Shown here: piece after piece, positions 1 through 17,445 of the stretch
Layout: the number at the start of each line of letters is the position of its first letter
Numbering within the stretch: position 1 is the stretch's first letter
From: Arcobacter sp.
GTDB taxonomy: Bacteria; Campylobacterota; Campylobacteria; Campylobacterales; Arcobacteraceae
Reading direction: 5' to 3'
DNA length: 64,000 nucleotides
Assembly (NCBI GenBank): GCA_020048055.1
Contig: JAIFNA010000009.1
Location: 1 to 64,000 of the forward strand
The notes under the pieces: generated by a model
Database searches by the model: none
What the model saw: the letters and a program-made list of their open reading frames with translations, nothing else
What the model was told of the DNA's origin: nothing
Program-made: the position numbers and the translations under genes

Positions 1-84
1 GTTAAAATCCCTTTAAAAAAGAGAAATCAGGCGAAAGCTCCTCAAACAAAAAAACAAAATTTATTTAAAGGTAGGACAATATGA
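1..84 (+). CDS. C-terminal end of an unidentified gene (partial)
   Basis: Frame 1 is open from the window edge to a TGA at 82-84, giving a 27-residue basic tail rich in Lys, Gln and Arg. The TGA overlaps the ATG of the next gene (ATGA at 81-84), the usual sign of translational coupling, which argues that this is the real end of an upstream gene. Nothing in the tail identifies a family. Confidence 0.5.
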   Translation, partial: VKIPLKKRNQAKAPQTKKQNLFKGRTI

Positions 85-545: not shown

Positions 546-560
546 AAGACTAGCTATTTT
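531..560 (+). terminator. Rho-independent terminator overlapping a stop codon
   Basis: AAAATAGCTAG (531-541) pairs perfectly with CTAGCTATTTT (550-560) around an 8-nt loop, and the T run ends the stem. The stop codon of the J-domain gene (543-545) lies in the loop. The hairpin is directly followed by leader repeat copy 1, so transcription probably ends and restarts here. Confidence 0.75.
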
Positions 561-563
561 TGA

Positions 564-627
564 AAAAAGTGGAAATTTGAATTAGTGTAGAGAGTAAATC
601 TCGCAATCAAAATTAAAAGGGGAAAAT
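564..627 (+). repeat. Conserved leader repeat, copy 1
   Basis: First of six full copies of a block found immediately before start codons in this element: an A run, GTGGAAATTTGAATTAG, TGTAGAGAGTAAATCTC, then an A-rich stretch and the ribosome site AAAAGGGGAAAA. GAGA-GTAAA-TCTC can form a 4-bp hairpin with a 5-nt loop. It ends at the ATG of the TraN-like gene. Confidence 0.9.
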
Positions 628-2289
628 ATGAAAAAACCATTTTTATCATTAATCGCTATAAGCTTGCTTTTCCCAGTATTTTCTGGATTTGGCAAGAGTT
701 TTAATTTGCTTGCTGATACCAACAGTATAAAAGAAACCTGTGTACTTGATAACTCTAGGGGCTTTGGCTATGTTGGAGATGCTAGTGGAAAAAGGATATA
801 CACTAAAGAAGAATATGTTTATAAATGCACAACAACAAAAACAGAAAGAGGTGCTTGTAAGTCAGACGGATGGGTGGAGCGGAAAGAATCGTTTAATTTA
901 GGAAAAATTAAACCAGGTCAAGTAGTTTTCGAAACTGAAGACTATAGTGGAAGTATGGGTTCCGCCTTAGCAGCAATTCAAGCCTACAATAAAATTAATG
1001 GAATCTGGAGCGGATGGCATGGAATTTGTCAAAAAGGTAAAGATGATGGCAACTGGGACTGGCTAAGTGATCCATATGTATTAGCAAGTTACGCGATAAG
1101 TGCATATGCTGGAACTTATGGTGCAAGTGCAACAGCAGCGAGTACAAGTGCAACAGCAGCCGCAGATACAGCGGCTCAAGCTGCTATGGAATCCGCTTCT
1201 TTCATCTCTGATGAGGCAACAGAAGTTGCAAAAACTGAAGCTGCTGCTGTGGCAGCGAAATCAGCTGCTCAAATGACAAAATATGCTGTCTGTAGCGCTA
1301 GAGCTGGATTAAGCACTGCTTCAATGATTTCTGAATATAAAGATGACGGTGAACCTTGTGACCCTGTTGATGAGATGTGTGATGAAGAAGCATCTAGTGA
1401 TAGCGAGATATATACTATCCCTGAAAAAGATTACAACGAATTGCTAAATAATAATCCAGATGCTGCAAAATATATAAAGGTACTTAGTGGTCAGGGTTCA
1501 GGAACAGTATTAATTAAAGTAATTAATCCAGGAATGGATAAAAATGCAAATGTCGGCGATATGGCTGCTGCTAAAGAAGCAGCTGAAAAGATTAAAAGAA
1601 TTATGTTATCCATAAGAGCTACATTGATGGCTATACAATTGTCAGGTTGTTTAAAAGGTAATGATAGCGGAGAAGGTGATTCTTCAAAAGGGGAAAGTCC
1701 AACATCCGCAAAAAATCTTGCAATGATGTCTGTAGGTTCAATTAATCCTATTGCTGGTATGGCGCTTAGTATGGCAATGAACACTTTTGAAAGTATGCAA
1801 GATATAGATACCTGTGGTAACAAAGATGATGCAAAAGAGAAAGGAAGCAGACATATCTCTACATACGAATCAAAAAATCATGGTATGTGCCATTTTATTG
1901 AAGATGTAAAAAGCGGTAGTGCTCCTTTTAGTGAAAAAACAGTCTCAAGATTTTGTTGCTATGATGATAAGCTCACTAGAATATTGGTTGAGCAATCTAA
2001 AGCTCAGTTGTTAAAAGACTGGCAACATTGTGCTGATATGACTGTTGCTGAATTACAATATTTAAAATTCAAAGCTTGTACTCCAGAAGATAGAACTTAT
2101 GGTATTGATGGAGTGAAATTAAGTGGTTATGCAACATTATCACAAAGAGAAAGTGCTTATCAATTTAAACGCAAATGTATAGACCTCGATGAACTTATGG
2201 AATATATGTTGAATACTTTTGGTGGCAAAGATATGTTGCTTGATGATAGAACTATCAAAGAGCAATTAGATTTAATGAAAGTGGAATAG
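628..2289 (+). CDS. TraN-like mating-pair stabilisation protein
   Basis: A 553-residue exported, Cys-rich protein. It has an N-terminal signal peptide (MKKPFLSLIAISLLFPVFSG), a central Ala/Ser/Thr-rich segment (about 150-220), an acidic Cys-containing stretch (about 235-255), and a C-terminal block starting at RFCCYDDKLTRIL (about 441) followed by a DW..C..MTV.EL pattern. That block matches the F-plasmid TraN signature (CCF.SKL.RI..EQ....L.W...C.G.t..EL). F TraN is an outer-membrane protein that stabilises donor-recipient contact; this one is somewhat shorter. The start follows leader copy 1 with an AGGGG ribosome site. Assignment rests on the C-terminal pattern only; the rest is divergent. 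Confidence 0.65.
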   Translation: MKKPFLSLIAISLLFPVFSGFGKSFNLLADTNSIKETCVLDNSRGFGYVGDASGKRIYTKEEYVYKCTTTKTERGACKSDGWVERKESFNLGKIKPGQVVFETEDYSGSMGSALAAIQAYNKINGIWSGWHGICQKGKDDGNWDWLSDPYVLASYAISAYAGTYGASATAASTSATAAADTAAQAAMESASFISDEATEVAKTEAAAVAAKSAAQMTKYAVCSARAGLSTASMISEYKDDGEPCDPVDEMCDEEASSDSEIYTIPEKDYNELLNNNPDAAKYIKVLSGQGSGTVLIKVINPGMDKNANVGDMAAAKEAAEKIKRIMLSIRATLMAIQLSGCLKGNDSGEGDSSKGESPTSAKNLAMMSVGSINPIAGMALSMAMNTFESMQDIDTCGNKDDAKEKGSRHISTYESKNHGMCHFIEDVKSGSAPFSEKTVSRFCCYDDKLTRILVEQSKAQLLKDWQHCADMTVAELQYLKFKACTPEDRTYGIDGVKLSGYATLSQRESAYQFKRKCIDLDELMEYMLNTFGGKDMLLDDRTIKEQLDLMKVE

Positions 2290-2372
2290 TGTGTTATTTG
2301 TACAATTAATTGCCTTGAATCTGCAATAGGTTTTTGGTAGTATTCTATTAATTAAAAATTCAAGGAGAAAAA

Positions 2373-2975
2373 GTGAAAAAGATGATTATGAAAACGGGTT
2401 TAGGTTTGGTTGCTATTAGTGTGTTATTTAGTGGGTGTGGGTATAATGCTCCCTCTCCAAAAATACTTAAAAATAATAATTATTCTGATGGCAAACTTCT
2501 CAGTGTTGATTATGATATTAAGGTAGACCTATCAGCGGCTTTATTTATGCGTTCTGCACCAAAGAAAGAGAACTTTAAATATGCATTTGCTATAGCTGCT
2601 AACCTAGCAAAAAAAAATAATTTGCAATATTTTGCTGTTAGGGATGGGAGAATTGGTCATCAATTTAAAGAAAGAAAAGTAACTAATATGCAAGAGGCTT
2701 ATGATGCATGCGCTTCTGGGGATGGGAGTTTTAATTTCTTTGCTGCTGCTGATGGGGGAGCTTTTTTTAAGGCAACAAATTGCGATACTTTAATATATGA
2801 TAAGTTAACTCCAATGAATTTACAGAATAGTTCATATCCACTTACTCTCAATGTTACACTTCTCAGCGAAGACAGAAAAGACAATTTAACTTTTGATGCT
2901 GACGAAGTTTTAAACTCTTCAATCATTAAAGAGCTAGATATGTCAAAAATTGCTGATGTTAAAGTAGTGGAGTAA
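2373..2975 (+). CDS. Putative lipoprotein of the transfer region
   Basis: 200 residues beginning at GTG, supported by AAGGAG 6 nt upstream. A basic N-terminus and hydrophobic segment lead to a lipobox (LFSGC, Cys about 22), so the mature protein is predicted to be lipid-anchored, probably facing the periplasm. The remainder is soluble with no family I recognise; it has a Gly/Ala/Phe-rich patch (about 128-141). It sits between the TraN-like and coupling-protein genes, 83 nt after the former, without its own leader repeat. A role in the transfer apparatus or in surface exclusion (lipoproteins of F and R plasmids do this) is only a guess. Confidence 0.7.
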   Translation: MKKMIMKTGLGLVAISVLFSGCGYNAPSPKILKNNNYSDGKLLSVDYDIKVDLSAALFMRSAPKKENFKYAFAIAANLAKKNNLQYFAVRDGRIGHQFKERKVTNMQEAYDACASGDGSFNFFAAADGGAFFKATNCDTLIYDKLTPMNLQNSSYPLTLNVTLLSEDRKDNLTFDADEVLNSSIIKELDMSKIADVKVVE

Positions 2976-2978
2976 TTT

Positions 2979-3004
2979 AGATGGAGGAGTCTTTCTTTCC
3001 ATCT
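2979..3004 (+). terminator. Possible terminator hairpin
   Basis: AGATGGA (2979-2985) pairs with TCCATCT (2998-3004) across a 12-nt pyrimidine-rich loop just after the lipoprotein stop codon. No real T tract follows, so termination is uncertain. Confidence 0.35.
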
Positions 3005-3071
3005 TTAGAGAGGAAATTCTTGTTAAAATAGAGCCATCAATCAAGGCTATAAATTGATTTATGATATTTAT

Positions 3072-3108
3072 GTGTAAGTCATTTAATGAATATTATTTGA
3101 CTTTACAC
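3072..3108. repeat. Inverted repeat in the 259-nt gap before the coupling-protein gene
   Basis: GTGTAAGTCA (3072-3081) and TGACTTTACAC (3098-3108) are complementary except for one bulged base, with 16 nt between. It could be an operator or a hairpin. Otherwise the 2976-3234 gap holds only the weak hairpin at 2979-3004 and the shortened leader repeat at 3188. Confidence 0.4.
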
Positions 3109-3187
3109 CTTATTTGAACAGTTAAAAGCTAATTAATTGTTCTACTTTCCAAAATCCCCCAGAACTTCACAATAAACTAACTTCATT

Positions 3188-3208
3188 AAAAAGTGGAAAT
3201 TTGAATTA
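3188..3208 (+). repeat. Shortened leader repeat
   Basis: Keeps the 5' part of the leader (A run, GTGGAAATTTGAATTA) but then diverges; the GAGAGTAAATCTC hairpin is missing and the ribosome site is AAAAGGAAAA. The ATG of the coupling-protein gene follows 26 nt later. The retained part may be the core recognition sequence. Confidence 0.8.
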
Positions 3209-3234
3209 CATTGTAAACCAACAAAAGGAAAACA

Positions 3235-4392
3235 ATGTTTCAATTTATCAAAAACTTTTCTATTTTTGAAAATAACGATCACAGAAAATTAGGTGCTCCA
3301 AAAAACGATACTCAAAAAGCAATCAAGAGCTCATTAGGGAAAAATCAAACCTCCATTACTACTGCTTGGGATGAATATTACAAAGAGGCTAAAAAATATA
3401 ATCCGCTGGATTATATTCGTAGCAATGAATATTTTGTTGGGCTAGAGCATAAAACAGGAGACCCCTGTTATTTAAAAGACAAAGAGGTGGTGCACTCAGC
3501 AGTAATCGGACCTACAAGAAGTGGAAAAGGTATTTTTTTCGGGTACAAAATTGTTGAATCTTTACGAAAAGGACAGGGTGTAGCGGTCTTTGACGTTAAA
3601 GAGGATAATTTTTTAGTACAAGTTTGTCTTGAGGAACTTGCCCGCCAAAATAGACCCGATGATTTGGTCATCATGAACTGGCCAAATGATGTTAGCTACA
3701 AAACATTTGAAAATGATAACCCAAGTGAAGTGGCTAAAAAACTTACAATTATGTTAAATCTTATTGAAGTTGAAGCAGAAGCTGGAGCAAGTTTTTATCG
3801 TAAGAGCGAAAGGATAGCACTCCAAAAGATTGTTAATCTTTTTTATAGTTCAAATGAACTTTTGGGAGTAGAGTTTAAAAAAGATTTACTTAATTTGATT
3901 CAATTTATTAAGTATCTTACTGAAGATTTATCAAATTTCCTTTCTTTTGCAAAAGAGAAAAATCAGAATAAACCAAATTATGATTTATTAAAACTGTATG
4001 GAAAAAGATATTTTGATCCGAAATTATTTGAAAAATGTAATGATTTTAAAGAACGAGATTTGCCAACTTTAGAGAGTTTGTATTTTAGTTTCAAAGAGTT
4101 TGAAAATATCAAATTCAGTGAAGATAAAAGCATTGAAGATGCAATATTTAGAGGGAAAATCGTTTATATCAAAAGTGATATGCTTGATGAGGCAGCATTA
4201 AAGTTTCTAAAGTTTGTTATTGCTGATATTGTAACTAAAGCAAAACGACAAAAAGGGGCTAATTGTCTTATTTTAGCGGATGAAATTTCTTTTTATCCTA
4301 CTCAGATTTTAAGTGCTGCACTTGCAACAAGTGCAGGATTTGGTTTAAGATGGTTTCTTGCCTATCAAGACGATGGACAAATTGGAAATTAA
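3235..4392 (+). CDS. Type IV coupling protein (VirD4/TraD family), N-terminal part before an in-frame stop
   Basis: 385 residues of a conjugative coupling ATPase, which links the relaxosome to the secretion channel at the inner membrane. Walker A is GPTRSGKG (92-99), Walker B is CLILADE (Asp-Glu about 349-350), followed by a motif ending LAYQDDGQIGN where family members continue. The TAA at 4390-4392 is in the same frame as the next ORF (4408-4818), which carries the expected C-terminal part; only AAT CTC AAG GCT GCT separates them. No clear N-terminal membrane segments are visible, unlike TraD or VirD4. It is probably one gene broken by a nonsense change, though a truncated product or stop readthrough cannot be excluded. 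Confidence 0.8.
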   Translation: MFQFIKNFSIFENNDHRKLGAPKNDTQKAIKSSLGKNQTSITTAWDEYYKEAKKYNPLDYIRSNEYFVGLEHKTGDPCYLKDKEVVHSAVIGPTRSGKGIFFGYKIVESLRKGQGVAVFDVKEDNFLVQVCLEELARQNRPDDLVIMNWPNDVSYKTFENDNPSEVAKKLTIMLNLIEVEAEAGASFYRKSERIALQKIVNLFYSSNELLGVEFKKDLLNLIQFIKYLTEDLSNFLSFAKEKNQNKPNYDLLKLYGKRYFDPKLFEKCNDFKERDLPTLESLYFSFKEFENIKFSEDKSIEDAIFRGKIVYIKSDMLDEAALKFLKFVIADIVTKAKRQKGANCLILADEISFYPTQILSAALATSAGFGLRWFLAYQDDGQIGN

Positions 4393-4407
4393 AATCTCAA
4401 GGCTGCT

Positions 4408-4818
4408 ATGAAATCGAATTGCCAGACCAAAATATATTACAAATCAAGTGATTTGAAAACCTTGGAGTACATCGAGAAATTGAGCGGAAAAGAGTTAATA
4501 ACTAAAATTGCAAAAAATGGCGAAGAGATAACAATTAGGCAAGAAACAGAAGATTATCTCAATATCACAGCACAAAGGGCTTTTCCAAAAACACAAGTTG
4601 CTATCCTACTTCAAGAGAGTTTACCTTTTACTTTGATTTTTGATACTCAACCAATACCAGTGGCTCATGAATTTGATTGGGATGAAATAAATAATAAAAA
4701 AGTTTTAATAAATTTACTGGAACTCACAAAAGATTTTTCAGTTTTAGAAGATAAAAAAGCTCAGGTAGTTAACGTAAGTGATGAAGATGATTATATGGTG
4801 GAAGAATTTGACATATAA
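4408..4818 (+). CDS. C-terminal part of the interrupted coupling protein
   Basis: 136 residues in frame with the preceding ORF. The opening CQTKIYYKSSDLKTLEYIEKLSGK is the segment that in VirD4/TraD-family proteins follows the Q-rich motif after Walker B (the NC.TKI.Y...D..T region), and the tail is acidic (EDDYMVEEFDI), as in many coupling proteins that dock partners through their C-terminus. No ribosome site precedes the internal ATG, so independent translation is doubtful. Read through the single TAA, 3235-4818 would give about 527 residues, a normal size for the family. Confidence 0.65.
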   Translation: MKSNCQTKIYYKSSDLKTLEYIEKLSGKELITKIAKNGEEITIRQETEDYLNITAQRAFPKTQVAILLQESLPFTLIFDTQPIPVAHEFDWDEINNKKVLINLLELTKDFSVLEDKKAQVVNVSDEDDYMVEEFDI

Positions 4819-4841
4819 TATTTAATTTAATGTTAATACCG

Positions 4842-4903
4842 AAAAAGTGGAAATTTGAATTAGTGTAGAGAGTAAATCTCAATCAAATAAAAAAAGGGAA
4901 AAA
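4842..4903 (+). repeat. Conserved leader repeat, copy 2
   Basis: Full copy including GTGGAAATTTGAATTAG, the GAGAGTAAATCTC hairpin and an AAAAAGGGAAAAA ribosome site, ending at the ATG at 4904. It lacks the GC after TCTC found in copies 1, 3 and 6. Confidence 0.9.
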
Positions 4904-5140
4904 ATGACTTTGTACGAAGAGCATAAATTAAAATGTAAAAATCAGGGCATTAAAATAGTAAGAGATTCATTTGACTTAAATGATGAGAATCTAAAAAGAG
5001 AAGTTGAAATGTTGAGAAAGGAAAATGAACGAAGCTTATTTGAGAAAATAAATGGAAATTATGCACAATTCTTGCTCGACTTTCTTCCTCTTTTTTTATT
5101 TTACGGCGCGTTAATAGCAATACTTTTTTACAAAGGATAA
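4904..5140 (+). CDS. Small single-span membrane protein
   Basis: 78 residues: a charged, probably helical N-terminal two thirds (coiled-coil-like around 24-48) and one C-terminal membrane span (about 56-75, LLDFLPLFLFYGALIAILFY) ending in KG. I recognise no family. A leader repeat lies directly before it and the topoisomerase gene starts 5 nt after its stop, so the two are probably one transcript. The perfect leader and ribosome site argue that it is a genuine gene. Confidence 0.7.
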   Translation: MTLYEEHKLKCKNQGIKIVRDSFDLNDENLKREVEMLRKENERSLFEKINGNYAQFLLDFLPLFLFYGALIAILFYKG

Positions 5141-5145
5141 AATAC

Positions 5146-7251
5146 ATGACACTTTACATTACAGAGAAACCATCTCAAGTTTCAGCTTTAGGTGATGCTT
5201 TAGCATCCAACAATATCAAAGACTATAGAATAATTGCTTTAGCAGGGCATTTTTTAGCACTCAATGATTTAAAAGATTACGGAATTATAGGAAAATGGGA
5301 CGATCTTGTTTCAGAAAACAAAATCCCATTTATTCCTCAAGTATTTGAAAAAAAAATCAAACCAGATTCTAAGTTTGTGAGAAATGGAAAAGAAGTAACT
5401 TACAGTTATAAAGATAGACTGGAAGGAATTAAAGAGGAGATTGAAAACTGCAACAATATTATTATCGCAACGGATCCAGATAACGAGGGAGCGACTTTAG
5501 CGCTTGAACTTATTCAACTTTATAATGCAATTCATAAAGTGATTGGTATGATAAATATGTCAAAACTTGACTTGACATCTTTATCAAAAGAGGTAAACAC
5601 CATCGACAAAATCCCATATTTTAATATGTATCAAGCAGGAGACAGTCGAGCTGCTTTCGATTGGAGTTTTGGAATGAATGCCACAATCCTTGCAACCACA
5701 AAATTTGGAAATGGGAATTTACTTAATCTTGGCGGTGTCAAATTACCAACAATTCGTATGGTGGTGGAGAGAGACAAAGAATTTGAAACATTTAAAGAGA
5801 TTCCATATTTTACAATTTCAGCAAAAGCAAAAGTCGGGGATGATGTATTTTCGGTGAAAATACAAGGTGAAGATGAGAGATTTACAAGTGAATCACTTGC
5901 AAATGATCTAATTAATGAACTCAAAGCAAATGGCTATAAATCAGTAGTTTCAGAGTTTAGTGAAACTAAAAAATCAACAGCACCATCAAAACCTTATTCT
6001 CTTACTGATTTGCAAGCAGCAGCGAATAGAAAGTTCAAATACACAGCGAGTGAAACACTTGAAGTTGCTCAAAAACTATATCAAGACTTCAAGGTTCAAT
6101 CATATCCGAGAACTGATAGCAACTATTATGCTGAAGGCGAATTTGAAAGTGCAGGGGAAATTTTAAGAAGTTTGGCGCCAATTAAAGGATTTGAAAATAT
6201 TTTAAACCTTGTAAATGTTGAAAGCCCATTAAAAAGAAAAATCTTTGATGACTCAAAAATCGAAGCTCATACAGCACTTAGCCCACTTGCTTCAATTACT
6301 TTAACTATTTTTCAAAATCTATCAGCGAGAGAGCAAAATATTTTTTCACTTGTTGCTTCACGCTATGCAATCCAGTTCATGAACGATTATAAATATCTTG
6401 AAATCAAAGGGAAAGCTACTCAAAACGATGTAAACATCGTATTTGGAGAAAAATTAACTTTAGAAAATGGCTTCAAAACATTTGAAAAAGATGAAGCTGA
6501 AGAGGATGAAAAAACACAAATTGGGGGTCGAACTATTCCAATTCTCAATAATGGAGATATTATCGAAATTTTAGAAGATAGTATCGAAATCAAACAAGGC
6601 TTTACAAAGCCTCGTCCACGATTTAAAGAGGCTTCATTACTTTTAGCAATGGAGAAAGTTTCACGATTCTTTGAAGATAAAGAGGTAAAGGAGCATCTAG
6701 GAGACGGAGGAATTGGAACGCCATCAACTAGAGCGAAAATCCTTGAAGAACTCAAAACAGCTAAAGCTGGAGATACCCCATATTTTGAACTCAACTCAAA
6801 AGGGGAATTGGTATCTACCTCAAAAGCAAGGTATCTAATAAATACTATTCCAAGTGAGATATCTTCCCCTGTTTTACGGGCAAAGATGGAATCTAAACTC
6901 AAGGAAATCGTAAAAGGTACTCTTACTAAAGAGGCTTATTTAGTAGAAGTTAGAGAGATTGTAAACAACATTTGCTCACTCATCGCATCAAGTGATGCTG
7001 AAAAAATGGAGAAAAAAGAAAGACCAGGTGCTGAAAGCGGTGAACTTGTAGAAACCCCAAAAACTTATCGTTTGGGTGATAAATTTATCTTTAAAACTTT
7101 TAGAGACAAAGCTATTACTAAAGCTCAAGCTAAAAAGATTTTAGAGGGTAGCAAAGTCAAAATGAAGCTTAAAAGCAAAGCTGGAAAAGACTATGAGATG
7201 AATGTGTTTTTAAAAGATGGAAAATTGGATGGGGAGTTTGTCAAAGGGTAA
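5146..7251 (+). CDS. topB: DNA topoisomerase III (type IA)
   Basis: 701 residues with type IA architecture. The N-terminal TOPRIM domain (about 1-150) has the catalytic Glu in ITEKPSQ (Glu7) and the acidic DPDNEG (110-115). The active-site Tyr lies in QSYPRTD (about 320). The GDGGIGTPSTRA segment (about 522-533) is typical of TopB/TraE. The C-terminus (about 640-701) is a small domain found in plasmid-type enzymes. The enzyme decatenates single-strand-linked DNA; plasmid copies such as RP4 TraE accompany conjugation and replication. It is 5 nt downstream of the small membrane protein and followed by leader copy 3. It is the element's enzyme, not the chromosomal TopA. Confidence 0.93.
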   Translation: MTLYITEKPSQVSALGDALASNNIKDYRIIALAGHFLALNDLKDYGIIGKWDDLVSENKIPFIPQVFEKKIKPDSKFVRNGKEVTYSYKDRLEGIKEEIENCNNIIIATDPDNEGATLALELIQLYNAIHKVIGMINMSKLDLTSLSKEVNTIDKIPYFNMYQAGDSRAAFDWSFGMNATILATTKFGNGNLLNLGGVKLPTIRMVVERDKEFETFKEIPYFTISAKAKVGDDVFSVKIQGEDERFTSESLANDLINELKANGYKSVVSEFSETKKSTAPSKPYSLTDLQAAANRKFKYTASETLEVAQKLYQDFKVQSYPRTDSNYYAEGEFESAGEILRSLAPIKGFENILNLVNVESPLKRKIFDDSKIEAHTALSPLASITLTIFQNLSAREQNIFSLVASRYAIQFMNDYKYLEIKGKATQNDVNIVFGEKLTLENGFKTFEKDEAEEDEKTQIGGRTIPILNNGDIIEILEDSIEIKQGFTKPRPRFKEASLLLAMEKVSRFFEDKEVKEHLGDGGIGTPSTRAKILEELKTAKAGDTPYFELNSKGELVSTSKARYLINTIPSEISSPVLRAKMESKLKEIVKGTLTKEAYLVEVREIVNNICSLIASSDAEKMEKKERPGAESGELVETPKTYRLGDKFIFKTFRDKAITKAQAKKILEGSKVKMKLKSKAGKDYEMNVFLKDGKLDGEFVKG

Positions 7252-7254
7252 TAC

Positions 7255-7319
7255 AAAAAAGTGGAAATTTGAATTAGTATAGAGAGTAAATCTCGCAATC
7301 AAAATTAAAAGGGGAAAAG
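7255..7319 (+). repeat. Conserved leader repeat, copy 3
   Basis: Full copy, with one substitution (TTAGTATAG for TTAGTGTAG), keeping the GAGAGTAAATCTC hairpin and AAAAGGGGAAAAG before the ATG at 7320. It begins a few bases after the topoisomerase stop. Confidence 0.9.
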
Positions 7320-7517
7320 ATGGAAGTGATATATTTTGAAACAAAAGGAAATTTTTTTACAATCTTGAAAGAAGATAATAAATTTATCTATATCAAGAAA
7401 GGGTTTTATGTTTTATCAGAAAATCTAGGGGCAATAAAAGAATATCTTAAAACAGGAAGTGTGTGTGGGATAACTTTAGGAAAGTTTGGAAGTGCTAAAT
7501 GTTTAATCAAACAATAG
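7320..7517 (+). CDS. Small hypothetical protein upstream of ssb
   Basis: 65 residues, no signal peptide or membrane span; the pattern of alternating hydrophobic residues suggests a small beta-rich fold. No family recognised. It directly follows leader copy 3, with the standard AGGGG ribosome site, and its last 19 nt overlap the start of ssb, so the pair is probably translationally coupled. It may be a partner of SSB or topoisomerase, but nothing in the sequence shows this. Confidence 0.6.
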   Translation: MEVIYFETKGNFFTILKEDNKFIYIKKGFYVLSENLGAIKEYLKTGSVCGITLGKFGSAKCLIKQ

Positions 7518-7927
7518 TAATCGGGAACTTAACAAGAGCCATCGAATTAAAATATATGCCAAGCGGAGCAGCAATAGCGCGAGGCGCAATCGCAACTTCA
7601 CATAAGTATAAAACCCAAGATGGAAGTCAAAAAGAGGAAGTTTGTTTTTTGGATTTTAAGGTATTTGGAAAACCAGCTGAGATTATTAATCAATATGTCA
7701 AAAAAGGTTCAAAAGTTATGCTTATTGGTCGATTAGTTTTTGAACAATGGACTGATAAAGATGGTGGAAATAGAAGCAGACACACCCTTAGAGTTGAGGA
7801 GTTCAAATTTTTAGATCAAAACAATCAGCAGCCAGATAAAGGCAATAACCAAGATTATCAATATCATGATTTTCCTTATCCAGATATTGACTGTGATGTT
7901 ATACCACCAATTCAAGAAAAACAGTAA
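7499..7927 (+). CDS. ssb: Single-stranded DNA-binding protein
   Basis: 142 residues with an OB fold (about 1-108): MFNQTIVIGNLTR at the start, the ATSHKYK segment, EEVCFLDFKVFGKPAEI, and VMLIGRLVFEQWTDKDGG are the usual landmarks. The tail is Gln/Asn-rich and acidic but ends DCDVIPPIQEKQ rather than with the canonical DDIPF tip, so contact with host SSB partners may be altered. It coats single-stranded DNA during transfer or replication of the element and is a second copy beside the presumed chromosomal ssb elsewhere. The start overlaps the preceding small ORF. Confidence 0.92.
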   Translation: MFNQTIVIGNLTRAIELKYMPSGAAIARGAIATSHKYKTQDGSQKEEVCFLDFKVFGKPAEIINQYVKKGSKVMLIGRLVFEQWTDKDGGNRSRHTLRVEEFKFLDQNNQQPDKGNNQDYQYHDFPYPDIDCDVIPPIQEKQ

Positions 7928-7945
7928 TTTTCCCCAACTTTTATC

Positions 7946-8006
7946 AAAGGTGGAAATTTGAATTAGTGTAGAGAGTAAATCTCAACCAAAACAAAAAGGG
8001 GAAAAG
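7946..8006 (+). repeat. Conserved leader repeat, copy 4
   Basis: Full copy with GTGGAAATTTGAATTAG, GAGAGTAAATCTC and AAAAAGGGGAAAAG before the ATG at 8007. The A run at its start is interrupted (CAAAG) compared with other copies. Confidence 0.9.
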
Positions 8007-8375
8007 ATGTTTAAATTTATTGGAAATTATTTTGCAAAACAAAAAGAGGAAGCTGTGGCAGATACTAGACGTTTTGGGCTTATAGCGATGATGTTATATT
8101 ATTATTTTGCGATGTATTATGTTGCAAAGATGATTATGATGTGGGCGATTTGGTTTGAGCCAAATTTAGCAAATTATGTTAATACGGCCATTTTAGGCTT
8201 AACGTTTGTGCTAACAATCGTGATAAATATTCGCAAATTTGAGGTTTTTTATGATTTTGCAAATACAAAGGGTGGGTTTAATTACAATTTAATGATATTC
8301 TCATGGGTAATGTTAAGCGGTTTAGCGACAATTTACGGTCAAACTGAGTATTTTATTAAACATTATTTGGCATAA
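8007..8375 (+). CDS. Small membrane protein upstream of the TraG-like gene
   Basis: 122 residues with three probable membrane spans (about 24-48, 57-75 and 94-112), Met/Tyr-rich in the first. The N-terminus carries a basic cytoplasmic-looking segment. No family recognised. It follows leader copy 4 and ends 2 nt before the TraG-like gene, so it is probably cotranscribed and may belong to the inner-membrane part of the transfer channel; that role is inferred only from position. Confidence 0.7.
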   Translation: MFKFIGNYFAKQKEEAVADTRRFGLIAMMLYYYFAMYYVAKMIMMWAIWFEPNLANYVNTAILGLTFVLTIVINIRKFEVFYDFANTKGGFNYNLMIFSWVMLSGLATIYGQTEYFIKHYLA

Positions 8376-8377
8376 AA

Positions 8378-11300
8378 ATGTTAAAAATAATACTATTTTT
8401 TATTTTTTTTGGTAGTCAATTATTTGCATTTACGGGTGTCAGCGATGACCCTGGTCGCTTTACTACAGACTTCCCAATTTATGTACAAGGCGACGTTGGT
8501 TTTATTGAGCTTGCACTTAATGGTGCAGCCATGCTAACACAAGATAGTGATTTTAGAAATTTGACAGAATTGGCTTTATTTATAGCTATTTTGATGGCTA
8601 GCTGGACAGCTTTTCGTACTTTTTCCCTTGCTTCACTTGGTAAAAGTACTTTTGTTGGAATGAGTGGACTTGGACTAATGTTCTCCCCCGTTACAACACA
8701 TATCATTGACGCAAGAACTAACATCAACATAATTGGACCCAACTATACAACAGTTGCTAATGTTCCATATTTAATTGCTCTACCTGCATCTTTAACTTCT
8801 AGCCTTTCAGCTCCGCTTCAAGATTTAGTACATGTTGCAACAGTACCTATTGAAAATGGAGAAGTAGCTGGTATATCAGCTCTTGCTATTGGAAACCAAG
8901 ATCAACTCAAGCAAGTGATGAAATCACTTTACAAGGGTGCAAGCTTTCAAAAAACGACTAATCCAACTTTATTAGCATTTAATCTTAAGCTTCGGCAGTA
9001 TATTCAAGGTTGTGTAATTGTATATGCTCCATTCTATCAATATGATGTGGATCAAGCACTAACATCGCCGAGGGGCGATCTGTTTCAATCGATTAGCCCT
9101 GGAAATTTAATTGCAATAAGCCAAGAACCAACAAGTGCTGTGAGTGAATTCAGGGATATTGGGTTGATTGATGCTAATGGCTCAGCGACTTACACATGTG
9201 GAACTTTACACGATAAAATAATTGCTGATATTCCCTTAACAAGCACAGAACTTAACAAAGAAGTTGGGGGAATGCTACCAAAAGGGCTTACTCTTAATAA
9301 TATGGCAGAGGGATTGGTTGCTTCTGGAATCGTCAATATTGGTGATGCAAATGGTTCCGCATCGGCAGTAAATGCCATAACGACCGTTAATAATTACATA
9401 ATGAATATTGCTTCAGCAGACACTTTGGCAGTTGCTTCAATGGCATATGGTGGCGATGGAATAAGAATTTCACAAGAAATAACGGCACTTAAATCCAAAG
9501 CACTTATGCAAATGGAGGGAACGGGTGGATTGAATTTCTTTGTTGAAATGCTTCCTAATTCCATGCACTTTATATATGCAATAGTTCTCTTCTTGGGAGT
9601 GTTTGTTGGTATATCTGCATTGGCTCAACCACAAATGGCAATAACAATTTACAAGGGGTATTTTTTATCTTTTGTAAGTTTTGAGCTTATTAAAGTTTCA
9701 CAAATCATTATAAGTAATATGACTCTTTATTATTCAAGTACAGGAGCAGCTGCGAAACTAATCACGTTAAATCAAAACGGAGCATCTCTAACATCTCTTA
9801 GCTCTTCGTACGATTATCTAGCCACAATGACAGCGATGAGCGGAACAATAGGAACAATGTTTATTTTGGCAATCCCTTCAATTATTTATCGCGGTGATTT
9901 TTTTGGCTTTATGAGTGGTGCTATTGGTACAACTGGTGGTAAATATTTAGGTAATGCAGTTGGAACTGCACAAGATGCAGCTTCAATTAAACAAGGTGGT
10001 GATGCAGCCGTTGATTCTCTCAGAAAAAATGAAGTAGCAATGAGAAGATTAAAACATATGTTTGGTCAAGATTTTGAGCCAACAATCGGTGCTGCTGATT
10101 ACTATAACAAAGTTCAAGCTCAAATGGGACAAGTTTCACAAGGTGCAGTTGCAATGACCAATATGGGTTCTTTAGAAAATCAAGCAAGTGGAGCCATGCT
10201 AATAGCTCAAAAACAACTAAGTTCTAATGCACAAGTTGGAGCAACTGGCAAGTATGCTAATGCAATAACAAGCGGGAAAATGGCTGGAGCACAAACAGCT
10301 GGAGCAATAGATGGGGACAAATTATCATTTGACCAATCTGGTCATCATTTATCTAAGTTTCATGATGCAGCGATGACAAATACTAGATCATCTCATGCTT
10401 CAAATTTTGGAAGTGCAGCTGGTTCAACGAGTAGCACTTTTGAGGAGCTAAGGCAAAATGCTGAATATTCCACAAAATCTGGAATTGCTTCAACACAGAA
10501 AAAACTTTCAACGCTTGATGGCATAAATAATGCGGTAGCTTTAGATGTCTCGAATGCTGAAAAATCAGCAATTGGACAAAGAGGAGATATTGCCGCTTGG
10601 AACAGTATGAATTCAGCCGATAAAGGTAGTTACGAAGCTGGTATGACTAAACAATCGACAAAAGCACTCTCAACCACTACAACACTTGGAGCAAATAAAG
10701 CAGTTACTAATCAAGTTGCAAAAGATAGTGGTGTAGTTTCAGGACTAGAGATGGCTGGCCAAATGATGGGGGATTCGCAAATATTAAGCCAAAAATCTCA
10801 AGATGATATTTTTAAAGCAATGAAAACAAGCACTTTGGCGAATAAAAAGAAATCCATTGAAGATGCAAAAAAGCTTTCGGAAACTTTTGGTGATGTGCTT
10901 ACAGGAGAAGGAAGTTTTGAGGTAACTGGCAAAGATGGGAAAAAACAAACACGAAAAATTGGTTTTGATGAGATGATTAAAAATGAAGCTTCCCAAGGAG
11001 TAGCTGGACGTATGGGAGCAGCAGAAGCATTTAACAGAACTGGTTTTGATATGACTGCTCAAAATGCTAATTACTCCGCAGAAAGTGGAGCAAGAGCAAC
11101 AGATGCAAAAATCAAAGCAAGTGATGGAATAGCTAAAGCAGTTGCTAGTGATATTGTAGCAGGTGGAATGGCTGGAGCTCAATCAAGCTCAACTGCTGAT
11201 AAATTTGGTCAATTATTTGATAAAGAAAGTGGGAAGCTTAGAGATAAACTAGCTGAAGGTGGAGAAGATGCAGCACGAGCTATCAAAAAAGCACTTGAAG

Positions 11301-13492
11301 ATTTTAAAGGTGTTACTGATGCTGGAGCAGACCAACAATTACGAGGACAAAAAGGTAATGCAAAAGGTTATTTAAAAAATCAAAAAGATTTCGGAAATAA
11401 TTATGCAGAACTTGGAGCAGAAAGTGGTGTAAGAAATTCAGCCGCTCAATCTATGGGAAATATTAATGCTATGGGTGGTGGTGAGAATGGTGTAAATAGT
11501 AGTGCTGCTTTAGCTTATGAAACTGCATTTGGGGACACAAAAGGAAAAGCTGCTGGAGTTGCTGAAGCAAGAAAGAAATTTGGAAGTTACGCTAAATCTC
11601 AAACAACGGCAGCAATTGGGTCGGTAGATATGGCATATAGTGCTTTTGCAGGAAAAACGAAGTCATCTAAGCAAACAAAAGTTGATGAATGGGGAGTTGA
11701 AGAAGTTTTTGAGCAAAAAGCAATGATGAACTCCGATGGGTCACTAACTAAAGAGGGAATGGCTGCAAATATAACAACTTCTCACGAACAAACAGCAGCA
11801 ATGATGACAGTATTTCAAGCTAAAGTAGATAATAAAATGGCTTCAAAAAATGGTGGACTTACAAATAAAGGGATAAATATTATCGGTTATGGTCAGTCTA
11901 TGGCAGTTGCTCAACAAAGTGAGAACTATAATACGGCAAGTGATACAAATGCTCGTCAAAGTTGGGCAGACCAAACGCTTGAAAGACTTAGTCAGAAAGA
12001 ATCTTTAGGAAGCAAGGATGAAGCAGTTAAGGAACTTAAAAAAAGTGGATTTATAACTGGTGTTGATGATGATGGGAAAGCCGTATTAAGTGATTTAAAA
12101 ACATCGATGAAAAGTAGAATACAAGGGGAAGCTTTAGCTAGTGCTTTTGGTGGCATGAGTGGACTTACTCTTAGTGATGGTACTCAAGTTAAAACTAAGA
12201 TGGGTAAAGATGAAGAGGGTAAATACAAAGCTAGGGTTGACACTGATTCAAGTGAAACTAATAAAGTTGGAAAACGAACAGATACTTCTATACCGCAAGA
12301 ACTCGCTGACAAACTAGCAGGAGTAACAGGTACCGATATTTTAACAACTCTTGGCGAATTAACACTTGGCGGTGCAGTTGTTAAAAAAGGTTTAGACTTT
12401 TACAATGATCATAATGTTAAAAATGCTAAAGCTGGAGATACTTTTGAGACAAATCAAGGGCAAACGGCAACTGCTGATGGAAAGGGTAACTTTACCGTTG
12501 ATGAAGAATACACTGATAAAAAAGGGGAAAAACAAACCAGAAAAGTTAGGGTTCAAGAAGGTAACTTGAAAGGAGTGGCGGGTAATGCTTGGTCTAAAGT
12601 TAGAGGATTGGCAGAGGAATTAAGTCCTTTTTCCTTTGGGTCTAGGGAAGAAGAAACCTTGGATAAAACCACCAATAGCAGCCAACATAACAACAGCGAT
12701 ACCCCCGAAGATGGCAATAAAAATCAAAGCTTCCATGATGAAAAATCTCCTTCAAAAATGATGAGTAATTATAGCACAAAAAGTCCTAAATTACAAGCTT
12801 TTGAGCAAAGTTTTAAAGGAAAAAGTATGGCTGCTGCGAGTGCACTCTTTGGAAAGATTGAAAATGAAATTTCAGATATAAGTGAAACAGTCAGTGATTT
12901 TTTTAATGACAATTCTCAAGCTGAAAATACAGCTGAAAAGACACAAATACAAGCTCAAAAAAGAAATAATTTCTTTGCTATGAAAAACTTTCAAAGCAAA
13001 AAAGCTTTTGCAGCAGCTTCTACAGTTGCTTTAGGCACTGTTGCAGCAGAAGCTAGTGAAACAATCGGTGAAGCAATGAATTTTATCGGTGGAGTGCCTG
13101 AGATTTTATTAAATCCTACAGAACTTGGAGCAGGTTCAGACCTTCCAGCAAAAGCACCACAAAAATCAAATATTGGGAAATTTGAATCAGCTAACATGAT
13201 AATTCCTGAAGATTTATCATCGCATGTGATAAAAGCAGAAGAATCACATAGAGGCGGAATAATGGATCCAACAAGCCAAATTAATGGAATGATGAATATA
13301 TCAAATACTCAACGGCAACAAATGGCAACTCAACAAATACAAGGCGAGGTTTATAATGTAAACGGGCAAGTGGAAAGTATGAAAAATATGATTTTGCAAA
13401 ACTTGGTAAAAAATGCACCTAATGTTACGAATGAAGATGTTGAGAGGTTAAAAAAACAAGTTGGACATATGAGAGCGAATCAAAATAGCTAG
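8378..13492 (+). CDS. Giant TraG-like mating-pair stabilisation / entry-exclusion target protein
   Basis: 1704 residues. A signal-like N-terminus (MLKIILFFIFFGSQLFAF) leads into a TraG_N-type region (about 50-500): FVGMSGLGLMFSP, YTTVANVPYLIALPAS and LTSSLSAPLQDL match the conserved core of F TraG, and membrane spans occur around 65-80, 390-410 and 485-500. The rest (about 510-1704) is a long soluble Ala/Ser/Gly/Gln-rich domain with coiled-coil character. F TraG is about 940 residues, so this is nearly twice the usual length. In F, the N-terminal part serves pilus assembly and the periplasmic part mating-pair stability and exclusion. A small antisense ORF lies within it at 12620-12736. Confidence 0.8.
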   Translation: MLKIILFFIFFGSQLFAFTGVSDDPGRFTTDFPIYVQGDVGFIELALNGAAMLTQDSDFRNLTELALFIAILMASWTAFRTFSLASLGKSTFVGMSGLGLMFSPVTTHIIDARTNINIIGPNYTTVANVPYLIALPASLTSSLSAPLQDLVHVATVPIENGEVAGISALAIGNQDQLKQVMKSLYKGASFQKTTNPTLLAFNLKLRQYIQGCVIVYAPFYQYDVDQALTSPRGDLFQSISPGNLIAISQEPTSAVSEFRDIGLIDANGSATYTCGTLHDKIIADIPLTSTELNKEVGGMLPKGLTLNNMAEGLVASGIVNIGDANGSASAVNAITTVNNYIMNIASADTLAVASMAYGGDGIRISQEITALKSKALMQMEGTGGLNFFVEMLPNSMHFIYAIVLFLGVFVGISALAQPQMAITIYKGYFLSFVSFELIKVSQIIISNMTLYYSSTGAAAKLITLNQNGASLTSLSSSYDYLATMTAMSGTIGTMFILAIPSIIYRGDFFGFMSGAIGTTGGKYLGNAVGTAQDAASIKQGGDAAVDSLRKNEVAMRRLKHMFGQDFEPTIGAADYYNKVQAQMGQVSQGAVAMTNMGSLENQASGAMLIAQKQLSSNAQVGATGKYANAITSGKMAGAQTAGAIDGDKLSFDQSGHHLSKFHDAAMTNTRSSHASNFGSAAGSTSSTFEELRQNAEYSTKSGIASTQKKLSTLDGINNAVALDVSNAEKSAIGQRGDIAAWNSMNSADKGSYEAGMTKQSTKALSTTTTLGANKAVTNQVAKDSGVVSGLEMAGQMMGDSQILSQKSQDDIFKAMKTSTLANKKKSIEDAKKLSETFGDVLTGEGSFEVTGKDGKKQTRKIGFDEMIKNEASQGVAGRMGAAEAFNRTGFDMTAQNANYSAESGARATDAKIKASDGIAKAVASDIVAGGMAGAQSSSTADKFGQLFDKESGKLRDKLAEGGEDAARAIKKALEDFKGVTDAGADQQLRGQKGNAKGYLKNQKDFGNNYAELGAESGVRNSAAQSMGNINAMGGGENGVNSSAALAYETAFGDTKGKAAGVAEARKKFGSYAKSQTTAAIGSVDMAYSAFAGKTKSSKQTKVDEWGVEEVFEQKAMMNSDGSLTKEGMAANITTSHEQTAAMMTVFQAKVDNKMASKNGGLTNKGINIIGYGQSMAVAQQSENYNTASDTNARQSWADQTLERLSQKESLGSKDEAVKELKKSGFITGVDDDGKAVLSDLKTSMKSRIQGEALASAFGGMSGLTLSDGTQVKTKMGKDEEGKYKARVDTDSSETNKVGKRTDTSIPQELADKLAGVTGTDILTTLGELTLGGAVVKKGLDFYNDHNVKNAKAGDTFETNQGQTATADGKGNFTVDEEYTDKKGEKQTRKVRVQEGNLKGVAGNAWSKVRGLAEELSPFSFGSREEETLDKTTNSSQHNNSDTPEDGNKNQSFHDEKSPSKMMSNYSTKSPKLQAFEQSFKGKSMAAASALFGKIENEISDISETVSDFFNDNSQAENTAEKTQIQAQKRNNFFAMKNFQSKKAFAAASTVALGTVAAEASETIGEAMNFIGGVPEILLNPTELGAGSDLPAKAPQKSNIGKFESANMIIPEDLSSHVIKAEESHRGGIMDPTSQINGMMNISNTQRQQMATQQIQGEVYNVNGQVESMKNMILQNLVKNAPNVTNEDVERLKKQVGHMRANQNS
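12620..12736 (-). CDS. 38-aa hydrophobic protein encoded antisense within the TraG-like gene (predicted)
   Basis: ATG at 12736-12734, preceded by AGGAG (12751-12747) at 10-nt spacing, opens 38 codons ending in TAA at 12620. The peptide has one strong membrane span (about residues 4-30, LIFIAIFGGIAVVMLAAIGG) and a basic tail (PRPKGKRT). This shape is shared by type I toxins and small regulatory membrane proteins. A near-consensus promoter lies 32 nt upstream on the same strand. Promoter, ribosome site, start and a span in one order are unlikely by chance, but no homology supports it and the sense frame is also coding. Confidence 0.45.
   Translation of the reverse strand: MEALIFIAIFGGIAVVMLAAIGGFIQGFFFPRPKGKRT
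12768..12796 (-). promoter_or_regulatory. Antisense sigma-70-type promoter inside the TraG-like gene
   Basis: On the minus strand, TTGTAA (12796-12791), a 17-nt spacer, then TGC-TATAAT (hexamer 12773-12768). The -10 is perfect and carries the extended TGn motif. The expected start would leave a leader of about 25 nt before the 38-aa ORF. Confidence 0.55.
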
Positions 13493-13510
13493 TTAAAAAA
13501 CTGGCTTTTT
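13482..13510 (+). terminator. Terminator at the end of the TraG-like gene
   Basis: AAAATAGCTAG (13482-13492) can pair imperfectly with CTGGCTTTTTT, followed by T residues; one wobble and one mismatch. It is clearly related to the perfect hairpin at 531-560, has the stop codon in the same place, and is again followed directly by a leader repeat. Confidence 0.6.
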
Positions 13511-13512
13511 TG

Positions 13513-13575
13513 AAAAAAGTGGAAATTTGAATTAGTGTAGAGAGTAAATCTCAATCAAAACAAAAAGGGGAAAAG
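13513..13575 (+). repeat. Conserved leader repeat, copy 5
   Basis: Full copy; together with the preceding terminator it forms a unit of about 95 bp that matches 531-627 throughout. It ends at the ATG at 13576 with AAAAAGGGGAAAAG. Confidence 0.9.
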
Positions 13576-14274
13576 ATGGATTATAACAAACTACATGATG
13601 AAGCATTATCGAATGCTTCAAAGGGAACAAATGCACTAGATAGTGCAATTAAATCTTCTTCAACAACAGGACAAAAGGGCAAGGACCCGATGTCAAGTTA
13701 TGAACGAAAACAGGATGAAGATGTTATGAGAAGTGCTCTGTCCTCTATTTTTGAAAGCATCGTCTCAAAAAGTAGTGATGCAGTCGCTAATAACTGGCGA
13801 GCTGATTTTAGAATGACTGAATCGGTTCACTTCTATTATTACAAATATTACTCGTCGAGTCCAATTGTGTTTTTAATTTTAGGTATTTTAGGTTTTCTTG
13901 TGGCGACATCGCATTATTATTTGTTCGCTTCAATCTTTACAGTTATGTCGGTATCAATGCTATCAGCAAGTAACCCAAGGGTATTTTTTGAGCTTCAAAC
14001 AAGACAAAAGTATAAAAAAGTGGATAAAGAACTTAAAGAGATTGTTTTTCAAAGCATATTTAACAATCTACTTTCATTAAAAAATGTCTTTATGCTTAGT
14101 ATCGGATTAACAGTTGTTTCGTTTCTGTTTCTCAAATTTCAATTTGCAATATTTGGATTCACCTGGATAAACTTTATTTGGGCGTACAATCCAAATTTTG
14201 AGCTTTATGGATTGTTCAATGCTTTGGCATGTTTTGTGAGTGGATATGCGAAAATAAGTGAGAGATGGGCTTAA
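13576..14274 (+). CDS. Multispan membrane protein of the transfer region
   Basis: 232 residues. A polar, charged N-terminal domain (about 1-90) precedes membrane spans at about 96-112, 116-132, 170-190 and 210-228, with a loop between the second and third that is Lys-rich and probably cytoplasmic. No family recognised. It follows leader copy 5 and a small hairpin lies at its end. Its place after the TraG-like gene suggests a function in conjugation or exclusion, without direct support. Confidence 0.7.
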   Translation: MDYNKLHDEALSNASKGTNALDSAIKSSSTTGQKGKDPMSSYERKQDEDVMRSALSSIFESIVSKSSDAVANNWRADFRMTESVHFYYYKYYSSSPIVFLILGILGFLVATSHYYLFASIFTVMSVSMLSASNPRVFFELQTRQKYKKVDKELKEIVFQSIFNNLLSLKNVFMLSIGLTVVSFLFLKFQFAIFGFTWINFIWAYNPNFELYGLFNALACFVSGYAKISERWA

Positions 14275-14284
14275 AGCCCTTTTC
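14267..14284 (+). terminator. Short possible terminator
   Basis: GGGC-TTAAA-GCCC followed by TTTTC, overlapping the stop codon of the membrane protein. The stem is only 4-6 bp, so it is probably weak. Confidence 0.4.
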
Positions 14285-14317
14285 TTAAAAAGATAAAATA
14301 AATAACAAGGAAAAACC

Positions 14318-14530
14318 GTGGCAACTAAAAAAACTATAGAAGAGTTACGAAGTGAAGCAAAAGCTTTAATCACAAAAGCAAAACAACAAGAACAAGAGCT
14401 TCTAAAACAAGCAAGAGAATTAGAATTGGAGAGTTTCCAATCTTTAGGTAGAGATGCTTTGCGATTTCTCAAAAATGAAATAACACTAGAAGAGCTGAAT
14501 GCAAAAGCAACTGCTCTGAAAATAAAATGA
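14318..14530 (+). CDS. Small coiled-coil protein
   Basis: 70 residues beginning at GTG (14318), supported by AAGGA 6 nt upstream. Most of the chain (about 4-48) is a charged amphipathic helix rich in Lys, Glu, Gln and Ala, followed by a short segment (FLKNEITLEELNAKATALKIK). Size and helical character resemble small relaxosome or mobilisation accessory proteins, but no specific motif proves it. It has no leader repeat; it may be read through the weak hairpin from the preceding gene. Confidence 0.6.
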   Translation: MATKKTIEELRSEAKALITKAKQQEQELLKQARELELESFQSLGRDALRFLKNEITLEELNAKATALKIK

Positions 14531-14551
14531 GGCTCAATAGCAGAACAATAT

Positions 14552-14616
14552 AAAAAAATGGAAATTTGAATTAGTGTAGAGAGTAAATCTCGCAATCAAA
14601 ATTAAAAGGGGAAAAG
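14552..14616 (+). repeat. Conserved leader repeat, copy 6
   Basis: Full copy (ATGGAAATTTGAATTAG in place of GTGG..., then GAGAGTAAATCTCGC and AAAAGGGGAAAAG) ending at the ATG at 14617. It is the last copy in the window. Confidence 0.9.
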
Positions 14617-14823
14617 ATGGAAAAAGAATTTATTAGCGAGAGACAAGCAGCTATACTGATAGGGGTAATGGCGAAAACATTACTTAATTGGAGAAAGAAA
14701 GGGGCAATAGACAAAGATGTTTATATTGAGAAACAATATTACAATGTGGCCAGAGTTATATATAATAAAGAAAAATTTTTAGGATGGTATTCCAACAAAG
14801 AAAATTTACAGAAATCAGCCTAA
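14617..14823 (+). CDS. Small helix-turn-helix DNA-binding protein
   Basis: 68 residues of the AlpA/excisionase type: the opening FISERQAAILIGVMAKTLLNWRKKGAI is a MerR-like helix-turn-helix, where the conserved R-x-A-A..L and TL.NWR.KG pattern contacts DNA, followed by a wing. Such proteins act as excision directionality factors or transcription activators in mobile elements. It is preceded by leader copy 6. Its TAA (14821-14823) overlaps by 4 nt the stop of the leftward repressor gene, so the two converge tail to tail. It could be a regulator of the leader repeats; untested. Confidence 0.7.
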   Translation: MEKEFISERQAAILIGVMAKTLLNWRKKGAIDKDVYIEKQYYNVARVIYNKEKFLGWYSNKENLQKSA

Positions 14824-15451: not shown

Positions 15452-15523
15452 ACATATAAAAGATAAAAGCCACACTCGCCAAAGCTAACTTTTACCTTTT
15501 TAATTAAAAACTAAGGACAAAAT

Positions 15524-17246: not shown

Positions 17247-17270
17247 TTCATTTCCTTTTTGTGGTATAAT
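17243..17270 (+). promoter_or_regulatory. Promoter of the toxin-antitoxin-like pair
   Basis: TTGATT (17243-17248), 16-nt spacer, TATAAT (17265-17270); the ATG of the 49-aa ORF follows 24 nt later behind AGAAGGAGT. Confidence 0.6.
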
Positions 17271-17294
17271 TCCTAAAATTTAGAAGGAGTTGTT

Positions 17295-17444: not shown

Positions 17445-17445
17445 T

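Follow-up and report, generated by a model that had tools for sequence, protein, structure and literature searches.

The first 64,000 nucleotides of contig JAIFNA010000009.1 of Arcobacter sp. (GenBank assembly GCA_020048055.1), referred to here as the window, raise the question of why one and the same leader should stand before the start codons of several genes with unrelated products. An initial annotation, made from the letters of the window, had described six full copies and one short copy, each directly before a start codon, and had proposed an element-specific cis-regulatory signal under selection; all seven coordinates are correct, and the proposal is supported by the finding that the core of the leader is kept in other elements. 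From sequence comparison we propose that this core, a 14-bp box, is a directional cis-regulatory site of a small helix-turn-helix (HTH) protein which would switch on the transfer regulon in a family of Campylobacterales conjugation elements, a reading to which we give a probability of roughly one half. Three parts of it we infer, namely the role of the HTH protein as reader of the box, its action at the level of transcription and the positive direction of that action.

The genome comprises 1,997,449 bases on 18 contigs, of which C2 carries the window and C15, C16 and C18 are the others concerned (G numbers denote compared genomes and L numbers the stretches of DNA that were read, L009 being the C18 stretch). 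The window begins where its contig does; C2 and C18 are nearly alike over their first 136 bases, and both C15 and C16 end by entering this shared sequence. C16 and C2 have a 14-bp repeat of the tRNA-Cys 3' end in common (window 17983-17996), and C15 and C18 are connected by a repeat of 22 bp. From these contig-end overlaps and repeats we infer two related integrative elements joined across contigs: E1, of about 20 kb, would consist of the end of C16 with an integrase plus window 1-17996, and E2, of about 17 kb, of the end of C15 plus C18 1-15523, likewise with an integrase.

All seven window leaders lie on the plus strand, and each reads through a Shine-Dalgarno (SD)-like sequence into an ATG. 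The first full leader (564-627; box GTGGAAATTTGAATTAG at 569-585) precedes the TraN-like gene at 628, with 42 nt between box end and ATG, and the short leader (3188-3234; box 3193-3209), which is without the hairpin segment described below, precedes the VirD4-like gene at 3235 with 25 nt in between. The remaining full leaders precede a 78-aa gene and topoisomerase III (4842-4903; box 4847-4863), a 65-aa gene and SSB (7255-7319; box 7261-7277), a 122-aa gene and a TraG-like gene of 1704 aa (7946-8006; box 7950-7966), a 232-aa gene whose product has the appearance of a membrane protein (13513-13575; box 13519-13535) and the HTH gene (14552-14616; box 14558-14574, with one mismatch in GTGG). At up to three mismatches the 16-mer GTGGAAATTTGAATTA has nine matches in the window, which are the seven leaders (six exact, one with one mismatch) and two three-mismatch matches elsewhere; the shuffle mean is 3.73, and nine were reached by 2 of 100 shuffles. 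With no more than one mismatch allowed, the whole genome holds eight copies, all forward (the seven of the window and C18:5723; none in the reversed control), and by reading all eight stand before an SD-like sequence and a gene start. The earlier remark that the leaders are seen nowhere else holds for exact copies in the window, but the sister element on C18 has one exact copy and further diverged ones.

When the E1 leaders are aligned with four E2 leaders, the shared unit is the 14-bp box GARATTTGAATWAG, and the full window copies contain an extra segment of 15-17 nt with a small dyad between box and ribosome site, which is found in E1 only. Its motif GAGAGTAAATCTC is exact in all six full leaders with no other exact copy in the window, and at up to two mismatches there are eight matches in all (shuffle mean 1.71), two of them near matches at 40653 and 43610. 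Since the short copy and the C18 copies are without the segment, we regard it as an insertion and the box as the shared part. The hairpin was rejected as the functional core, because it is confined to E1 and because the leader RNA is no more stable than shuffles (z-scores from -0.88 to +0.50 in six folded leaders); the functional 5' hairpin that had been suggested is missing in the short copy as well as at the sites of E2, G403, G295 and G224. A Rfam scan of window 1-18000 gave no match. In an alignment of the sites anchored on TGAAT, the invariance of which is thereby built in, the box region alone stands out, with no conserved -35-like or downstream block.

Near-identity among the six full window copies means that they count as one event; they fall into two subtypes, and the copies at 564 and 13513 also have their upstream terminator sequence in common, as would be expected if the leaders were recently duplicated DNA without a function of their own. 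The 62-bp extent of the window copies is indeed likely to reflect recent duplication, so that copying, which had been offered initially as the alternative to selection, may explain their near-identity. It does not explain the box, which is kept in other elements and in another family while its flanks differ, and leaders devoid of function are highly improbable. We suppose that in E1 the 15-17-nt segment first entered between box and ribosome site and that the resulting leader then multiplied inside the element by copying.

Sites like the window leaders, without the hairpin segment, stand before genes in E2 at L009 722, 1346, 3783, 5723, 7561 and 11579. A profile of two HTH proteins, searched in 397 genomes of the class, led to strong homologs in G403, G295 and G224, which belong to another family of the same order. 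G403 has five boxes (L130 19449+, 19389-, 14143-, 10541- and 10261-, the last before its HTH gene) and G295 has boxes at L133 11308+ (before the HTH gene), L134 88+ and L134 29-. In G224 a variant, ATTATGAATAAG, precedes F-type transfer genes, with seven sites of similar sequence read on L135 and four more before genes on L156 (18861-, 17607-, 8697- and 4882-); the genes of the latter contig encode TraC, a relaxase, TraH, TraN, a TrbI-like protein, TraK, TraE, a DsbC-like protein and TraG, box 17607 preceding the TraK gene and box 8697 the DsbC-like gene. G295 has the variant (11036+) before the ortholog of a G403 gene that has GAAATTTGAATTAG, so that the two box forms occupy the same site, and in G628, a genome held out of the first comparison, the variant precedes the HTH gene. 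In this second family the box stands before genes without BLAST similarity to window genes, and the TraG-like proteins are related at the profile level. In G006, between the HTH gene and its divergent neighbour (L101 10935-11022), lies a 37-nt inverted repeat (78%) with two copies of AAATCTCTGAATA, possibly a distant form of the box.

The strict pattern GARATTTGAATWA[GC] has 19 matches in the element stretches, every one in the correct orientation with an SD-like sequence and a start within 50 nt; 18 open into a reading frame (ORF) of at least 40 codons and the other, L134 29, reaches the end of its contig at the start codon. No match was found in 657,975 bases of control chromosome, in which some stretches were counted twice. 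As the pattern was derived from E1 and E2, its recurrence there is partly by construction, which is not so for its placement in G403 and G295. The variant pattern ATTATGAATAA[GT] lies before gene starts in six of six cases in the elements and does not occur in the control chromosome. A loose pattern, [AT]TGAAT[AT]AG, precedes an SD-like sequence and ORF at 22 of 28 sites in the elements versus 6 of 49 in the control, and was rejected as too weak to serve as sole marker.

Among 228 genomes of family f7, ten contain exact GAAATTTGAATWAG, and more than one copy is found only in G403 (five; control 0) and G295 (four; control 1), both of which carry the HTH gene. All five copies of G403 lie within 10 kb; three of those of G295 are in element contigs, and the fourth lies outside them and, by eye, not before a gene. 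The exact 16-mer was confined to the window's own genome among 104 genomes of its family, and at up to one mismatch it matched 40 of the 397 class genomes (eight copies in its own, four in G271, at most two in others). Of the 44 matches outside its own genome 34 were tested for SD-like sequence and ORF; five passed, three of them at apparently one coding site, and gene-start placement was absent in 29, including those of G271, G299 and G081. No box was seen at up to three mismatches in the stretches read around TraN and TraH relatives in the family (G080, G086, G100, G017, G093, G014, G023) or at the loci of weaker family-level HTH matches (G062, G093, G102, G026, G056, G050 and a second G006 site). 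Two long leader patterns had no exact match in viral_contigs and genome_contigs, searches of which may omit the own genome; the plasmids collection gave weak matches only (6 records, best E 0.08). A search of titles and abstracts found neither the core motif nor anything describing it for conjugative elements of Arcobacter, Campylobacterota or Sulfurimonas. What these searches show is a restriction of the box to these elements in the genomes covered.

The geometry was compared at 28 sites (seven of E1, six of E2, five of G403, three of G295 and seven of G224). In all 28 the asymmetric box is oriented toward the gene, and it ends 16-35 nt before the ATG in 22 of them and 40-42 nt in the six with the insert, a spacing which fits the position of a -10 element or a transcription start. 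A host-type -10 element, defined as TAnnnT with at least five of six matches to TATAAT within 85 nt upstream of the start, is present in 48 of 50 chromosomal divergent upstream regions (Markov sequence 64%), in 10 of the 28 leaders over five elements and in none of the seven window leaders; nor does a promoter-like pair fall within a window leader among 60 of 67 sites listed. A sigma-70 promoter was rejected since the leaders show no -10 enrichment, and a sigma-54 promoter (GG-N10-GC) since the window leaders read GG-AAATTTGAAT-TA and the boxes of G403 and G224 are without the GG, which agrees with the earlier observation that neither type has a good match. The box as a -35 element is unlikely, because at the TraG gene of G403 it ends 16 nt before the ATG with the ribosome site in between. 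The suggested resemblance of TGTAGAGAG to promoters of single-subunit polymerases found no support: it concerns a segment outside the conserved core; the RNA_pol family PF00940 has no match in the genome, and no control genome matched either.

Two window leaders are directly preceded by terminator-like structures on the plus strand, which suggest that transcripts start there: a 12-bp hairpin at 531-560 ends just before leader 1 (the tool lists it on the minus strand, our reading places it on the plus strand) and a hairpin at 13487-13506, which with its T-run spans 13487-13512, ends at leader 13513. In contrast, the box-less replication-side operon of E1 at 15524 has a promoter-like pair, TTAACA-16-TATAAT, at 15421-15448 (plus strand), and the corresponding box-less operon of E2 has, by eye, TTGACA-N17-TAATAT. 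Constant orientation, nearness to the start, the upstream terminator-like hairpins and the lack of a -10 element together favour an element acting at the start site over a plain operator.

The candidate reader is the 68-aa HTH protein encoded at 14617-14823 (plus strand), with five homologs that are 41-54% identical; the E1 and E2 proteins (68 and 69 aa) share 52-54% identity. When ORFs of at least 40 aa were compared by BLAST between the compared stretches of E1, E2, G403, G295, G224 and G006 (the homolog of the latter came from the family search), the HTH protein, of 61-73 aa, was the only one with matches (E ≤ 1e-4) in all six elements. E1 shares with G403, G295 and G224 only this protein and, with G224, a 70-aa protein, and yet it has the same box. 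The HTH gene itself is boxed in E1, E2, G403, G295 and G224, five of the six compared, and in G628. The link to protein 14617 suggested initially is plausible. The same suggestion for the AlpA-type protein at 17052 finds no support on operon evidence, its operon being without a box and having the TTAACA-16-TATAAT pair.

For a hold-out, six HTH sequences were searched against the same 228 f7 genomes, which yielded three new genomes, G628, G549 and G516. At E ≤ 1e-6 the HTH gene is thus found in 6 of 228: G403 and G295 (with the box), G224 and G628 (with the variant), and G549 and G516 (without a box). On contig C158 of G549 (L166 61-513) two near-identical HTH genes lie in tandem without a recognisable box, the first starting at contig base 61. 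Thirteen further class genomes among the 397 have weaker profile matches (E 1e-6 to 1e-3), whose loci were covered by the box scan only. The HTH_17 profile matches four of six homologs (best E = 1.7e-6), and the window member has no match at E ≤ 0.01; the protein was not found in plasmids with the E1 query or in phages with the G403 query. In E1, E2, G403, G295 and G006 a gene for a repressor-like protein faces the HTH gene tail to tail. That of E1 (14820-15365, minus strand, convergent with the HTH gene) is so named by position and weak HTH matches and has BLAST matches in G006 only among the compared elements. The repressor-like proteins are partly similar by BLAST, namely E1 to G006, E2 to G403 and G006, and G403 to G295 at 44%.

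We propose that the box, GARATTTGAATWAG or its variant ATTATGAATAAG, defines the transfer regulon of these conjugation elements, that the element's own HTH protein of 61-73 aa would bind it in the -10/transcription-start region, and that in concert with host RNA polymerase it would switch on the transfer units jointly, the HTH gene included. The replication-side genes would rely on promoters of the ordinary sigma-70 type, probably controlled by a CI-like repressor.

Several findings weigh against this proposal. Two of the six E2 sites are weak (722 and 1346, with position weight matrix scores of 10.6 and 6.5 versus 29.5), G006 has a loose two-copy relative of the box only, and one box-like site of G224 (L156 12711-) falls within traC, at its 3' end. 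Terminator-like sites are modestly above shuffles (13 versus 8.6 in the region), the single-sequence fold of the HTH protein has no PDB match at E ≤ 0.001, and the -10 rate of the leaders, though below that of chromosomal promoters, is not clearly below Markov sequence (36% versus 50%). Furthermore, a perfect TATAAT stands upstream of the box in 3 of the 28 leaders, where the box would then sit in the 5' untranslated region (UTR). Such a TATAAT would suit an operator at which the HTH protein represses weak or upstream promoters by covering the start region; repressors usually bind start regions, and small HTH proteins commonly autoregulate. However, a repressor needs neither an asymmetric site nor one that points at the gene in all 28 sites read and in 19 of 19 strict matches, and 18 of the 28 leaders offer no -10 element at five of six matches to repress, so that we hold repression to be rather unlikely. 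The same three leaders, with the orientation of the box and its nearness to the ribosome site, are also compatible with a translation or stability signal acting in the mRNA 5' UTR, for which the start-linked SAS of cluster K mycobacteriophages, which contain the ribosome site (PMC3203893), provide a parallel. This is unlikely given the terminator-like hairpins, which suggest that transcripts begin at two window leaders, and a proposed hairpin that is neither conserved nor stable, with no Rfam match in window 1-18000.

Finally, of the three held-out genomes in which an HTH homolog is clear, two (G549 and G516) show no box that could be recognised upstream of the HTH gene, which lowers our confidence in the HTH protein as the reader. 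They could be accommodated if the actual reader were a host factor or one supplied by a helper conjugative element, with the HTH protein as a travelling companion, for instance an excisionase: PHROGs places it weakly near excisionases and transcription regulators (phrog_66, E = 0.001), and PF11130 (TraC) is unmatched in G000, G403 and G295 and matched in G224, where boxes precede transfer genes. We nevertheless consider an outside reader unlikely, as in the genomes searched repeated boxes were confined to those that carry the HTH gene, and that gene is itself boxed in six elements or genomes.

Among known systems, the AcaCD boxes of IncC plasmids and of SGI1 appear to come closest in logic to the box and its HTH protein, which are not a member of that system. 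AcaCD boxes precede several transfer units, on SGI1 those of xis, S004, traN, traH and S018 (PMC5058578), and SGI1, which is not self-transmissible, carries traN, traH and traG able to replace helper subunits (PMC5389848). A common box likewise precedes several transfer units here, both in a conjugative element (G224, which would be self-transmissible) and in islands; in the TraC-less islands these are TraN-, TraH- or TraG-like units, as on SGI1, and in G224 F-type transfer genes. AcaCD, on the other hand, is FlhDC-like and has a GCCCAAAATGGGC core at the -35 position with a -10 box 22-24 bp downstream (PMC5058578). Our core is AT-rich, asymmetric and 16-42 nt from the ATG, unlike the GCCCAAAATGGGC type, and Pfam scans of the E1 and E2 genes showed no FlhDC-type protein.

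The SAS of cluster K (PMC3203893, PMC12699233) and ICEclc (PMC9286271) are looser analogs. SAS and ESAS are short asymmetric start-codon repeats, mostly in one orientation and rare in host DNA, and SAS contain an AGGAG ribosome site typically 3-7 bp from the start (PMC3203893). The boxes resemble them in being short asymmetric repeats just before starts and differ in being separate from the ribosome site and in belonging to conjugation elements. ICEclc has a host of another phylum. In its transfer-competence regulon (BisR, AlpA, BisDC) the promoters share one motif and BisDC activates, the regulatory node including an alpA gene (PMC9286271); the likeness lies in the arrangement of conjugative-element promoters with a common motif.

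We put forward only tentatively that one code, made of the box and a tiny HTH protein and working without a sigma-70 -10 element, is common to an F-type element (G224) and TraC-less islands in different families of this order. If so, it would be an independent counterpart of the relation between IncC and SGI1, in which islands respond to the same signal as a helper does and set by it when they excise and remodel the pore; mobilisation of the islands by a helper, as for SGI1, is a possibility. The box also raises the possibility of SGI1-like conjugation parasites outside the bacteria where these are known, and it would define a kind of promoter that has no recognisable -10 box and whose reader is shorter than 75 residues. 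Titles and abstracts gave no description of transfer-gene control in conjugation elements of this group, for which the box offers a sequence handle for finding further elements and, with the HTH protein, a defined protein-site pair to test.

As to the elements themselves, both combine an integrase with attachment repeats, as do self-transmissible integrative and conjugative elements: E1 has the integrase at L088 18401-19561 and its right attachment repeat at 17983-17996 (plus strand), matching the tRNA-Cys 3' end on C16, and E2 the integrase at L009 14451-15491 and the 22-bp repeat. The type IV secretion system (T4SS) ATPase TraC was not found in the window's genome by PF11130 (the control matched 2 of 14 genomes, and among T4SS ATPase families the search covered this one alone). 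E1 encodes a weakly TraN-like protein (628-2289, plus strand; Pfam F_T4SS_TraN E = 5e-4, below its cut-off), a VirD4-like coupling protein (3235-4818, plus strand) whose gene is divided into two ORFs, the in-frame stop lying at about 4390, topoisomerase III, SSB and a TraG-like protein (8378-13492, plus strand; TraG_N E = 4e-23), and E2 encodes VirD4, TraH and TraG. Unlike the split gene of E1, the VirD4-like copy of E2 (L009 2179-3771) is a single open frame.

On G224 contig C25 (L136 600-2300, part of it masked), near the contig end, ORFs contain a recurring sequence of about 36 bases resembling a CRISPR array. Between two units of E2, directly before the exact box at 5723, about 900 bases (L009 4820-5720) hold ORFs of at most 67 aa. 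At the left end of E1 lies a DnaJ-like gene (window 81-545), of which the E2 copy (L009 81-230, 49 aa) matches the first 20 and last 31 residues only. Before this gene both elements have a similar stretch of about 370 bases (L087 and L088, each 19630-20000), which may be an origin of transfer or else an end with a regulatory role.

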